Positions 12,955-19,291 of a stretch of 64,000 bases of DNA are shown in pieces. The notes beneath the pieces are model-generated. The model was not told the origin of the DNA and searched no databases. It worked only from the letters and a program-made list of their open reading frames with translations. How positions within the stretch are numbered: position 1 is the stretch's first letter; each line of letters begins with the position of its first letter. Location: NCBI GenBank assembly GCA_021851865.1, contig JAJZBU010000002.1:1-64000 (forward strand), given 5' to 3'. The stretch comes from Pseudomonadota bacterium. Its GTDB lineage: Bacteria > Pseudomonadota > Gammaproteobacteria > Pseudomonadales > Moraxellaceae. The position numbers and the translations under genes are program-made.

Positions 12955-13965
12955 TCAGGGGAGCAGTTGCGCGACCTCGGGGCTAGCGTAGAAGAGGCTG
13001 AGATGCGCACGCAGGCGCTGTTCCAGATGCCCCGATTGACGCAGCTGCGTCAATGCCGGCTCGATACAGGCGAGAATCTCGCGCCCGATCGTGGCGACAT
13101 CGAGGGCTTGCCGGGTGAGCACCTGTGCCAGGGGGAGGCTGCCGAGGCTGTCCGCAAGGGCATCGACGATAGCATCGAGCAAGGCGGCTGCGTAAGGCGT
13201 CTGGCGGACATCTTCCCAAAAAGTGTTCAGGATGCTCTCGGCGTCGATGAGTTCGCGTTCACCGATATAGGCGATGAAGCTGTCGAGATTGAGGTCGCAC
13301 GCCTTTTTCCAGGCTTCGATCAGCGCCTGGCGCAGGCGCGGCCCCTTGCAGGCTTTTTCGATCAGATGTTCGCTCAATTCGAGCGAGGCGCGCAGGTTTT
13401 TGGCGATGGTCTGCTTGATGGTGCGCTCGATACCCTCCTCGAGCCCACCCATGCGATTGACCATGCCTTTGCCCAGTTTCATCAGGGAAGACATGCCCGG
13501 GACTTTCTTGGTCAGGATGTTGTCTTCGAGGAGATAGTCACGGATGCCGTTGTAGAGCAGGTCCGACAGGACGTCGCTGTAGACTGGACTGGCGAGGACG
13601 GCGGTGACGACGTCGCGGCGCAGATCCTCGAGGTCGAGCAGACGATCAATCAGGCTTTCGACGTGGCGCGAATCGATCAGGTCTGCGGCGCGCGTCTGGC
13701 CTTGCAGTGGTAGGGCGAGCAGGCGCCGCGCCAGATCGAGGCTGGTCTGGCGCAGGAGCTCGGTCGCCGGCTGTTGCAGAATCTGCTGGCGCAACAGGCG
13801 TTTGATGGCTTCCAGGTCGACCAGGGTGGCGAGGGGTTGATCGGCGAGGGCGGTGACGAGCGCGTCGATTTCGCTGGGTACGGTCTGTTGTAGCTGCTCG
13901 GTCGACAGCTGTTGCAGCAGTTGTTGCGTATGCGCATCGAGCAAGGTTTGGGCGAGCGGATGCAT
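12955..13965 (-). CDS. Helical protein of unknown function, paralogue A
   Basis: This 336-residue protein appears almost entirely alpha-helical, with many Leu/Ala/Gln heptad-like stretches and no convincing signal peptide or membrane span. It shares clear features with the protein at 14954-15940: PLAQTLLDA at the N-terminus, a central HVESLIDRLLDLEDLR...SPVYSDVLSDLL block, and the C-terminal FYASPEVAQLLP. It also has a 50-residue insertion (KVPGMSSLMKLGKGMVNRMGGL and following) that the paralogue lacks. AGGAG lies eight bases before the ATG. The gene sits 18 bp downstream of the esterase gene. I recognise no enzymatic motif. Confidence 0.8.
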   Translation of the reverse strand: MHPLAQTLLDAHTQQLLQQLSTEQLQQTVPSEIDALVTALADQPLATLVDLEAIKRLLRQQILQQPATELLRQTSLDLARRLLALPLQGQTRAADLIDSRHVESLIDRLLDLEDLRRDVVTAVLASPVYSDVLSDLLYNGIRDYLLEDNILTKKVPGMSSLMKLGKGMVNRMGGLEEGIERTIKQTIAKNLRASLELSEHLIEKACKGPRLRQALIEAWKKACDLNLDSFIAYIGERELIDAESILNTFWEDVRQTPYAAALLDAIVDALADSLGSLPLAQVLTRQALDVATIGREILACIEPALTQLRQSGHLEQRLRAHLSLFYASPEVAQLLP

Positions 13966-13983
13966 CGGCGAATCTCCTTGGGG

Positions 13984-14877
13984 TCAGTTCAAGTGCGCGC
14001 GCAAAAACCGCAAGAGGTCTCGCTGGTCGGCGCGCGCTTCCGCGATGAAGGGATAAAAAATGGGCCAGACATGTGGCATGTCCGGTCTTTGCAGCAGATC
14101 GACCTGGACACCAGCGGCACGCGCTCGCCGTGCCACTTCCACGGCGTCATCGGCAAAACACTCGCTGGCGCTGCAGCTCAGCCATAGGGGCGGCAGGCCA
14201 TGATAGTCGCCGAACAGTGGCGAGGCGTAAGGATGGTGCGGGTCGGCGCCGGCGAGATAGACGTCGCGACCGGCATGCAGCATGTCGAGGGAGAGCATGT
14301 CGTCGCTCTCGCTGCAGCGGATACGGCTGTTCAAACTGTTGCTCAGGTCGGCATGGGGCGAGATGGCGATCGCCGCCGCCGGCAACGGCTGGCCTTCATC
14401 GCGCAGACGCAGGAGCAGGGAGAGGGTCAAGGCGCCACCAGCGGAATCGCCGGCGATGACCAGCTGTTGCGTCGGAAAATGCCTCAACATGGCGAGATAG
14501 ACGCTATGCGCGTCGTCGAGGGCGGCGGGGTAGGGATGCTCGGGCGCCAAACGGTAGTCCGGCAGCCAGACGGCGACATCGCAGTGGCGCGCCCAGGCCG
14601 CGCACAGGTTGAAGTAAGTGCGCGTGACACCGGCGATGAAGCCGCCACCATGCAGATAAAGGATGGCGGCGCGCGTCTGCCGCGGGCTCAACGAATCGAC
14701 GCCGATGCCCTCGACCTGGCGTAGACGATGGGTTACGCCCAAGGCCGGCAGTCGGGGCAAGAGCGAGGCATTGAAGTGGCGACGCAAATGCCGCACCAGC
14801 TGATGCGGTGTATCGGGGGACGTCTTGATCGTGTGCCGCACGAGGGTCTTGAGGACCCGGGCGCTAAGGCTGGGCAT
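13984..14877 (-). CDS. HSL-family alpha/beta-hydrolase (esterase/lipase)
   Basis: This 297-residue protein has the hormone-sensitive-lipase-family signatures: oxyanion-hole HGGGFIAG, WLPDYRLAPEHPYPAALDD, the nucleophile elbow GDSAGGALT, a probable catalytic Asp in SECFADDAVEVARR and His in DMPHVWPIF. Such enzymes hydrolyse short- to medium-chain acyl esters in the cytoplasm. No signal peptide is seen. AGGAG lies eight bases before the ATG. The gene is sandwiched between two paralogous helical-protein genes in the same orientation (77 bp after one and 18 bp before the other), suggesting a joint role, perhaps in lipid handling. The substrate cannot be told from sequence. Confidence 0.9.
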   Translation of the reverse strand: MPSLSARVLKTLVRHTIKTSPDTPHQLVRHLRRHFNASLLPRLPALGVTHRLRQVEGIGVDSLSPRQTRAAILYLHGGGFIAGVTRTYFNLCAAWARHCDVAVWLPDYRLAPEHPYPAALDDAHSVYLAMLRHFPTQQLVIAGDSAGGALTLSLLLRLRDEGQPLPAAAIAISPHADLSNSLNSRIRCSESDDMLSLDMLHAGRDVYLAGADPHHPYASPLFGDYHGLPPLWLSCSASECFADDAVEVARRARAAGVQVDLLQRPDMPHVWPIFYPFIAEARADQRDLLRFLRAHLN

Positions 14878-14953
14878 GGACGAAACTCCTGTGGTCAGCC
14901 AGGGATTTCCACACTCTAGCGGCTTGTCGGCAATTGACCATGTCTGGCCGGAC

Positions 14954-15940
14954 TCAAGGAGCGGGCGCGCCGGTCAGTAGCTGTTGCACTTCCGGGGACT
15001 CATAAAAGGGTTGCAGGATCTTGCGCAACATCGACTCGAGCATCTTCTTGCGGCGCAGCACGCGCAACACCGGTGGCGCGAAACGCAGGGCATCCTGCAG
15101 CATCATGGCGCGGGTGATGCCGAGGTCGTCGAGCAGGTCGCCGAGGAGGACCTCGCCATAGACCGAGAAAAAGGCGTCGACGCCGGTATCGAGAAGCTCA
15201 CTGTAGAAGTCGGTCTGACGCAAGTGCTGCCAGTACTGGTAGTAGATGACAAAGAAGTCCTCGACGTCGATCGGGGTGACGTAGTCGCTGATGCGGCCGA
15301 TGGCGCGATGGCGGATCTGTTCCCAGGCATCGAGCATGGAGTCCAGCCATTGCTGGTCTTCGAGGGTCTTCAGCTGTTCGCACAGATCCTGCAGGCTGGC
15401 GGTGATGAAGTGCAGCAGCAGATCGTGCATCCGGCCCTGCCAGAGGCTGCGTTTGAGCATCGGCCAGTTGCGCTGCAGGGTGTCCGGGGTATGGTTTTCG
15501 ACCCAGGTGCGCAGGCGGCGCAGCAGCATGTCGGTGAGCAGCTGAGCGAAGACCGGATTGTCCTTGATCTCATCCAGGGTGTTTTGTCGCAAGTCCTTGA
15601 GCTCGAGCGATTTCTGGAAGAGTTCGCGCACATGCGGACTGGGCAGGATGGCGTCGATACGGGTCTGCTTCTGCGCGATCTTCTCATGCAGCAGATGCGC
15701 CACGGCGCTGGCGATCTCGGGGATGGCCGAGCGCAGCTGCAGGTTGACGGCGTACTGCCGGAGCGTGGTCTTGATCATCTCCGGCGTGATGAGTTCATTC
15801 AAGCGCAGGCGCTGTGAACGGGCGAGCAAGTCGTCCAACCCATGTTCGATAAAAGCCTGCAGGCGAGGGCCCGAGAGGTCGCGCAGGATGAATCTGACCT
15901 GAGCGTCGAGCAATGCCTGGGCCAGGGGGGACGTCTCCAT
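14954..15940 (-). CDS. Helical protein of unknown function, paralogue B
   Basis: This 328-residue protein is predicted mostly helical and is a paralogue of the protein at 12955-13965. It has SPLAQALLDAQ at the N-terminus, IKTTLRQ, a central SPHVRELFQKSLELKDLRQNTLDEIKD segment with NPVFAQLLTDML, and a C-terminal FYESPEVQQLLTG. The open frame extends to an ATG at 15955. I choose ATG 15940 because GGAG lies seven bases upstream and the N-terminus then aligns with the paralogue. The C-terminal half has an aromatic stretch (DFFVIYYQYWQHL) and a basic LRVLRRKKMLESMLRK helix. No known domain is recognised. Confidence 0.8.
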   Translation of the reverse strand: METSPLAQALLDAQVRFILRDLSGPRLQAFIEHGLDDLLARSQRLRLNELITPEMIKTTLRQYAVNLQLRSAIPEIASAVAHLLHEKIAQKQTRIDAILPSPHVRELFQKSLELKDLRQNTLDEIKDNPVFAQLLTDMLLRRLRTWVENHTPDTLQRNWPMLKRSLWQGRMHDLLLHFITASLQDLCEQLKTLEDQQWLDSMLDAWEQIRHRAIGRISDYVTPIDVEDFFVIYYQYWQHLRQTDFYSELLDTGVDAFFSVYGEVLLGDLLDDLGITRAMMLQDALRFAPPVLRVLRRKKMLESMLRKILQPFYESPEVQQLLTGAPAP

Positions 15941-16221
15941 AGCGTAACTCCGCATAATCCATATCCATGGTGACGCCCATTCTATACAGGATCGAGGCGG
16001 CTGGCGACGAGGAGAGAGGCACTATCCGGGTCACGGAGAGGGACAAACTTTGTGGATTATTTAACAATCTGAAACAAATCTATCTTCTGCGTGGGGTGAT
16101 GTCGTGGTGGTTTGTGGCACACTCGGCTAAGTTTGATGCATCGGGAGCTGCGTTGTTCGGTGAGCAGCGACAGGATGTTCCGGTTGACTTCATTGACCGA
16201 CGAACGACGGAAGTAGAACCC
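15941..16221. other. 280-bp divergent intergenic region
   Basis: This is one of the longest non-coding stretches of the window, between paralogue B (minus) and the NlpC/P60 gene (plus). It contains an AT-richer patch around 16050-16085 (GTGGATTATTTAACAATC and beyond) that could host a promoter. I could not find a convincing -35/-10 pair with correct spacing for either direction. No RNA gene, riboswitch or repeat is recognised. Confidence 0.5.
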
Positions 16222-18100: not shown

Positions 18101-19291
18101 ATGACGCTGGCGCGGCCTTACGATGTGGTTCTGTATGGAGCCAGTGGCTATACCGGAGCGTTGGTGGCTGACTGCCTGGCGCAGTCTTGTGCCGGGGCGG
18201 GCCTGCGCTGGGCTCTCGCTGGCCGCCACCTCGACAAGCTCGAGGCGGTGCGTAGCCAGCTGCACCTGCACTCGGTGCGCGACATTCCCGATCTTCTCCA
18301 TGCCGAAAGCGGGGATGCGGGCAGTCTGCATGAGTTGGCGCGGCGCGCGCGTGTGCTCATCAACACGGTGGGCCCCTACGCCGCGCACGGCGACGCGCTG
18401 GTGCACGCCTGCATCGCCCAGGGCACGCATTATCTCGATCTTTGCGATGAGCCGCAGACGGTCGATCACCTGCGCCGCCATTGGCACCATCTGGCGGTGC
18501 GCAAAAAAATCTGCATTCTGCCTTGTTGTGGCTTCATGAGCCTGCCGGTCGATATCGGCGTGCTGCATCTGCTCGAAGGTTTGCGTCATGATTTCGGCGC
18601 CAGCTTGCGCCATCAACGGGTTGAGGTGTTCGCCGGTATCGAGGCCGACGGCGCCATCTCCGGCGGGACCTGGGCTGCCCTGTTGCAGTCTCTGGCCGAG
18701 AGCGGCTTGCCGCGCTTGCGTCGGTTTCAGGCGGCGCAGCAGCAGGCTTTGCCGGCGCGCCCACAATATCGTCAGGATCTGCAGCGCTGGGCTTTGCCCC
18801 TGGTGACCATCGATGGCGACGTCGTGCGCCAGTCGGCGCGTCTACGCGGCGATTACGGCGCCGACTTCCGTTATGGCCACTTCGCTTTGGGCGAGCATCT
18901 GCTGCCCATGCTCGGCTTGGCGGCGGGTATCGTCGGTCTGACCTTGGCGGCGCAGTGGTCACCGACGCGGCAATGGCTGCAAGGGCGTCTGCCGAGCGGT
19001 AGCGGGCCGAGCGCCGAAGAGCGTGCGCGCGGCTGGTTTCGTATCAGTCTCATCGCCCAGGTGCGGAATCGTCGCTGGCAGACGCAGGTGAGCGGTGGTG
19101 ACCCGGGCTATGGCGCCACCTCGCACATGCTGACGCAAGCCGCCCTGCTCCTGGCTGGCGGCGGTATCGCCGCCTATGGCGTGCTGACGCCGGCGTCAGC
19201 CCTCGGGCTGGCGATCATTCCGGCGCTCGAGCGCGGCGGCGTGCATTTTGCTCCGATAAGTCCCTGCCCGCCATCACCAGCGCTTTCCTAG
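18101..19291 (+). CDS. Saccharopine dehydrogenase-like NAD(P)-binding protein
   Basis: This 396-residue protein opens with YDVVLYGASGYTGALVADCLAQ, a Rossmann nucleotide-binding motif. It continues with RARVLINTVGPYAAHGDALVHACIAQGTHYLDLCDEPQ, the signature of the saccharopine-dehydrogenase/trans-acting enoyl reductase family (COG3268 type). A hydrophobic segment near 265-290 (LGLAAGIVGLTLAA) is common in this family and suggests membrane association. Family members include mycobacterial trans-acting enoyl reductases acting on lipid intermediates, and many of unknown role. GGAGGG lies six bases before the ATG. The 3' end overlaps the convergent membrane-protein gene by 4 bp. Confidence 0.88.
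   Translation: MTLARPYDVVLYGASGYTGALVADCLAQSCAGAGLRWALAGRHLDKLEAVRSQLHLHSVRDIPDLLHAESGDAGSLHELARRARVLINTVGPYAAHGDALVHACIAQGTHYLDLCDEPQTVDHLRRHWHHLAVRKKICILPCCGFMSLPVDIGVLHLLEGLRHDFGASLRHQRVEVFAGIEADGAISGGTWAALLQSLAESGLPRLRRFQAAQQQALPARPQYRQDLQRWALPLVTIDGDVVRQSARLRGDYGADFRYGHFALGEHLLPMLGLAAGIVGLTLAAQWSPTRQWLQGRLPSGSGPSAEERARGWFRISLIAQVRNRRWQTQVSGGDPGYGATSHMLTQAALLLAGGGIAAYGVLTPASALGLAIIPALERGGVHFAPISPCPPSPALS

Follow-up and report, generated by a model that had tools for sequence, protein, structure and literature searches.

Three genes occupy positions 12955 to 15940 of the window (the whole 64,000-nucleotide stretch analysed), all on the minus strand and transcribed in the order B, esterase, A. 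Gene B (14954..15940, the ATG start lying at 15940 or alternatively at 15955) encodes a protein of 328 residues, the esterase gene (13984..14877) one of 297 residues and gene A (12955..13965) one of 336 residues. GGAG-type stretches precede the three starts, and the intergenic gaps measure 76 bases between B and the esterase gene and 18 bases between the esterase gene and A; co-transcription is plausible. Counts of promoter-like sites in the region (1 against 0.8 expected) and of terminator-like sites (6 against 2.4 expected, standard deviation 1.7, every one inside genes) carry no weight, and Rfam gave no match at gathering score. The central product is an HSL-like member of Abhydrolase_3 (E 8.5e-53; 179.7 bits against a Pfam gathering score of 25) with a GDSAGG nucleophile motif and no signal-like start in its sequence. 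Among NCBIfam models it scores best against NF058651, the HSL subfamily with a GESAG motif, but stays well below the cut-off (201.7 against 430 bits), its own nucleophile motif reading GDSAG. As the original prediction held, A and B are paralogues that flank a single esterase gene in the same direction: aligned over their full length they are 28% identical (E 4e-27), profile-profile comparison relates them with a probability of 100%, and both the coordinates and the shared motifs quoted for them proved correct.

That these proteins match no described family was also borne out, as neither A nor B reaches any Pfam or NCBIfam cut-off. PDB sequence searches gave nothing convincing with A and B singly (best E 0.16) or with a 39-row profile (best E 0.0028). 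Each of 43 members from two alignments was also run by itself against Pfam with an E limit of 1. The matches were weak and scattered: DUF445 came up most often (2 of the 20 B-type sequences, 4 of the 23 A-type ones, best E 2.7e-5), and GerD matched 4 of those 23 (best E 0.0017). DUF445 (PF04286) resembles the family in being a helical protein with weak profile similarity across about 160 columns (hhalign against the family profile: probability 38.5%, 159 columns). The case for membership was judged too weak; of the two query proteins from the locus, P0003 scores 12.6 bits, where the gathering score is 33.8, and P0001 does not appear among the matches. Two true DUF445 genes, distinct from A and B, stand elsewhere in the window genome (G000:C10:65289-66407 and G000:C22:60950-61219). 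GerD (PF17898; PDB 4o8w), a spore germination protein, shows weak helical similarity and accounts for the PDB profile match at E 0.0028, but only a short stretch is concerned (profile positions 73-147) and most members have no match to it. The lipase foldase Lif (PF03280, Lipase_chap) is a helical protein whose gene adjoins that of a lipase; however, neither P0001 nor P0003 matches it within an E limit of 5, and separate PF03280 genes stand near family members in two cases (L031 and G254).

In proposed role the family can be compared with phasins and perilipin-type surface proteins, helical coats of storage inclusions, although no Pfam or NCBIfam model of theirs is listed for A or B (with an E limit of 5, neither query protein matches a Pfam phasin model). 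A second comparison, by proposed role rather than by sequence, is with MLDS, in Rhodococcus jostii the major protein of lipid droplets (PMC5504291); none of the library families searched connects MLDS with A or B. AlphaFold models, obtained with an input alignment of 7 sequences only, are all-helical but weak (A: pLDDT 66, pTM 0.35; B: pLDDT 73, pTM 0.42). The B model has no Foldseek match in the PDB at E 0.001 or better, and its best VIA-align score is a Z of 5.6, which may mean nothing for helical models; the absence of a structural match to this model need not indicate a new fold. Neither protein contains a stretch resembling a membrane helix, the highest 19-residue mean hydrophobicity being 1.41 for A and 1.09 for B against a threshold of about 1.6 for such helices. 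Self-comparison for internal repeats returned a single further alignment, with a probability of 2.1%. No description of the family, which lacks a name to search by, was found in the literature titles and abstract openings searched, and the passages used of PMC10351704, a paper on WS/DGAT gene contexts, do not name it. The family is nameless in the catalogues searched, and its members appear as hypothetical protein in the named records read.

The best-conserved internal stretch of the A-type proteins, overlooked by the original prediction, is KKVPGMSSLMKxGKG, in which G157, K163 and G165 are invariant among 23 sequences and which also occurs in many members of other families. In the window this signature is kept in A (KKVPGMSSLMKLGKG, residues 153-167, 13465..13509, minus strand) and lost in B, where the aligned site (residues 154-164, 15449..15481, minus strand) is shortened. 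Single-copy genomes carry the signature in 23 of 30 cases and miss it in 7. Among the 30 two-copy genomes for which both copies were read, exactly one copy bears it in 24, both in 1 and neither in 5, whereas about 15 of 30 would be expected to have exactly one if the copies were independent (p 0.0005, relatedness ignored); this count rose from 20 to 24 when the motif pattern, written after the alignment had been viewed, was loosened. The two-copy list was assembled by hand and comprises 35 entries, of which 5, with one copy fetched, were left out of the split; the L069 and L073 pieces (<250 aa) enter no motif count, and L031, L161, L162 and L163 stand outside the signature counts. That one copy usually keeps the stretch while the other has lost it suggests a division of labour between the two.

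Matches to A were found in 30 of 58 relatives, most of them at two places, and the family is present in 69 of 390 genomes of the order and in 6 of 229 genomes of the class (Gammaproteobacteria). A tblastn search of a plasmid collection picked up Gordonia polyisoprenivorans, Tsukamurella tyrosinosolvens and six records of Acinetobacter baumannii, the last with two places each; throughout, the gene is annotated as hypothetical protein where it is listed. Three A. baumannii records (NZ_CP077849.1, NZ_CP064203.1 and NZ_CP104448.1), filed as plasmids, have 3.7 to 4.1 Mb and by that size look like chromosomes. Viral contigs, searched with P0001 only, gave no match, and a phage collection gave 4 matches, all under one Acinetobacter phage name. 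In a tree of 51 rows the division between A and B is fully supported. A second tree, widened to 88 rows, was built by a quicker method and rooted at the midpoint; in it the two copies of the f1 genomes (the family of the window genome) and of the f29 genomes fell on opposite sides, whereas both copies of the f43 genomes fell on one side, and duplication therefore probably occurred more than once. To judge by the Acinetobacter matches and the similarity of the lipase, f1 is probably Moraxellaceae. One record titled as a Pedobacter MAG (L032, JAVHYE010000026.1) has both paralogues in the gene order of G014, and its title is probably wrong.

The arrangement at the locus had been taken to denote a dedicated esterase-partner system, and this did not hold up. 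Only in three genomes of one genus (G000, G001 and G002) do B and A have the HSL esterase immediately between them; in two further loci (G014 and L032) it is present with genes interposed. Within the 58 genomes, 24 of the 30 that bear the paralogues have no close match to the esterase, which was the outcome named beforehand as counting against such a system; a match of at least 45% identity over nearly the full length is found in the other 6, window genome included, and in two of these 6 (G003 and G029) that match lies away from the family genes. The HSL esterase is an occasional neighbour, not a constant partner. Of 27 A-clade loci, 12 have a different hydrolase gene as the immediate upstream neighbour of A (L033, a duplicate of L034, was left out of this count and of the wider tree): it encodes an Abhydrolase_1 protein whose best PDB match is 4opm (E 4e-122), an entry named lipase. 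This lipase opens with a signal-like stretch in its sequence, whereas A shows none. The same layout is seen in A. baumannii, where an alpha/beta hydrolase gene is followed 26 bases further by that of a hypothetical protein.

Counted over 53 members in 50 loci, alpha/beta hydrolases make up 11 of 104 genes at ±1 and none of the 85 genes at ±4 among the families listed (25 of 122 families). The enrichment has p 0.001 by gene and 0.026 by group, and p 0.007 if one hydrolase is hidden among the unlisted ±4 families (1 of 85), for loci that were hand-picked with the intention of one per lineage and a category, 'alpha/beta hydrolase', that was chosen after the tally had been seen. The 11 genes fall into six groups: HSL, the 4opm-type lipase (six genes), a dienelactone-type protein (L037:11377-12261, motif GYCFGG), a BAAT thioesterase, a PF09994-type protein and a GFSLGG protein; the groups of L037 and L178 were assigned from motif and sequence reading, L178 being without a PDB match. 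A further neighbour, L059:8496-9296, was considered as a dienelactone hydrolase and rejected as PhzF-like. Gene calls in all fetched loci follow a simple choice of open reading frames, and starts and gaps are approximate.

Other enzymes of lipid metabolism also adjoin family genes. Fatty-acid desaturases account for 3 of 104 genes at ±1 and 0 of 85 at ±4 (p 0.16, not significant alone). In G440, a divergent TetR gene, a 2Fe-2S/FAD reductase gene and a desaturase gene precede the family gene, which begins about 270 bases further on; the nearest NCBIfam model of the TetR product is FabR, below cut-off. G042 and G084 have BLAST relatives of these genes arranged alike, except that a single small gene separates them from the family gene. 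The G440 layout resembles that of the DesT/DesB system in Pseudomonas aeruginosa, a system treated in PMC10634369. In G527, genes for WS/DGAT (wax-ester/triacylglycerol synthase, PF03007), a GGDEF protein and lumazine synthase precede the family gene, all on the same strand; the successive gaps measure about 113, 21 and 6 bases. Numerous other neighbours (NAD synthase, DEAD helicase, pdxH and pyruvate kinase among them) play no part in lipid metabolism, which counts against a function at lipid surfaces. A B-type gene directly follows that of NAD synthase, near-touching or overlapping, in L070, L071, L072, L068, L122 and L163, A. baumannii included.

The distribution of the family was then compared with that of WS/DGAT, counted in the class sample over the cut-off. 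WS/DGAT is present in 12 of the 229 class genomes, namely 5 of the 6 with the family and 7 of the 223 without it (p 9e-7); leaving out the window genome, the figures are 4 of 5 and 7 of 223 (p 1.5e-5). The five best WS/DGAT scores in the class belong to the five genomes that have both. In the order sample, a match at E 0.001 was found in 65 of 69 genomes with the family and 86 of 321 without it (151 genomes in total, 149 of them over the cut-off), and counting by genus gave 20 of 23 against 39 of 119 (p 1.5e-6). Conversely, 86 of the 151 WS/DGAT genomes of the order sample lack the family. PHA synthase, taken as a control in the class, gave a much weaker signal (4 of 6 against 53 of 223, p 0.035). 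All these Fisher tests ignore relatedness, and the cross-counts assume that repeat searches of one group cover the same genomes, totals and handles being equal.

Together with the hydrolase, desaturase and WS/DGAT neighbours, the basic conserved stretch and the lack of a membrane helix, this co-occurrence favours a role in lipid handling. We propose, with a probability of roughly one in three, that A and B belong to an uncatalogued soluble all-helical family that handles long-chain lipids, likely at the surface of membranes or inclusions. The role in polymer or lipid storage put forward as a possibility in the original prediction survives on its lipid side, where the correlation suggests a link, and the family makes a promising target, not a system already explained. 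Shared lifestyle is the strongest objection to this reading. PF10118 is present in 19 of the 229 class genomes, with 6 of 6 against 13 of 223 in genomes with and without the family, and since it co-occurs at least as well as WS/DGAT, a shared lifestyle could explain the statistics. The family might then have some other intracellular role and simply be common in bacteria of oily substrates that carry WS/DGAT and PF10118. Such an account, which we hold to be quite possible though on balance doubtful, agrees with the many neighbours unrelated to lipids and with the family-bearing genomes that have no WS/DGAT match (G057, G097, G068 and G069 in the order, G624 in the class), which likewise count against a lipid-surface role. 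However, among PF10118 genomes the family still tracks WS/DGAT (5 of 6 with the family against 2 of 13 without, p 0.0095), and lipid enzymes adjoin the family genes, beyond sharing their genomes.

The same neighbourhoods could reflect a soluble acyl carrier with no role at surfaces: binding fatty acids or acyl-CoA, it would shuttle them through the cytoplasm among desaturase, thioesterase, lipase and WS/DGAT. The desaturase genes that adjoin the family in several lineages speak for it, as do the eight fetched f20 loci, which have directly upstream of the family gene PF10118 and DegV in 5, PF10118 alone in 1, DegV alone in 1 and neither in 1; a DegV-type gene is thus present in 6 of 8, and the DegV fold is known for fatty-acid binding. 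A BAAT-type thioesterase gene adjoins the family gene in Gordonia, and genes for a 3-hydroxyacyl-CoA dehydrogenase and a thiolase lie near it in Tsukamurella. A carrier nevertheless seems unlikely: no known acyl-binding family matches A or B, no pocket is visible in the weak models, and the conserved basic stretch would be left without a reason. Very improbable is a dedicated partner that folds, inhibits or positions the adjoining hydrolase, despite the 4opm-type lipase upstream of A, the HSL esterase beside A in 3 loci (2 more with an interposed gene), the A. baumannii pair and the other hydrolases that adjoin other members, as most fetched members have no recognised hydrolase, the hydrolases belong to unrelated groups, the signal-like stretch of the lipase has no counterpart in A, the window esterase is missing from most family-bearing relatives and A and B fall outside the lipase-foldase family.

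If the family does handle long-chain lipids at a surface, A and B would bind the surface of membranes or of neutral-lipid inclusions, with the basic KKVPGxxSxMKxGKG stretch as the likely contact, although no lipid site can be made out in such weak models. There they would keep in place acyl substrates or enzymes that act on lipids (a synthase, desaturase, lipase or esterase), and the two copies, one with and one without the stretch, would divide the labour. Enzymes would have been recruited lineage by lineage, the HSL-type esterase having arrived between the copies in the window genus as one more lipid enzyme. Paralogy, the motif split, the co-occurrence and the neighbourhoods were observed directly, whereas lipid binding, the place in the cell, any contact with the esterase and the mechanism are what we infer. 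More specifically, the family might be a bacterial counterpart of the perilipins. In Acinetobacter-type bacteria and their relatives it would then coat or organise inclusions of wax ester and triacylglycerol through motif-bearing and motif-less partners, with lineage-specific recruitment of lipases, esterases, desaturases and WS/DGAT; this elaboration we consider unlikely as it stands. To our knowledge, the organiser of neutral-lipid inclusions in Gram-negative wax-ester producers is poorly known, and the family offers a concrete candidate for it through its co-occurrence with WS/DGAT, its same-strand links to a WS/DGAT gene in one genome and to desaturase genes in several, and a conserved stretch open to mutation.

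In loci of f20 and f43 genomes (L045:6985-7842, L104:8688-9554 and L110:7786-8625), a gene for PF10118, a predicted metal-dependent hydrolase, lies beside that of the family, and its product may be a second partner of the family. Finally, a saccharopine-dehydrogenase-like gene lies three genes away from B in the window (18101-19291, plus strand). Its product is related (26-30% identity over about 195 aa) to those of two Sacchrp_dh_NADP genes, L099:1912-3249 and L100:5224-6363, which in G068 and G069 immediately precede the family gene.
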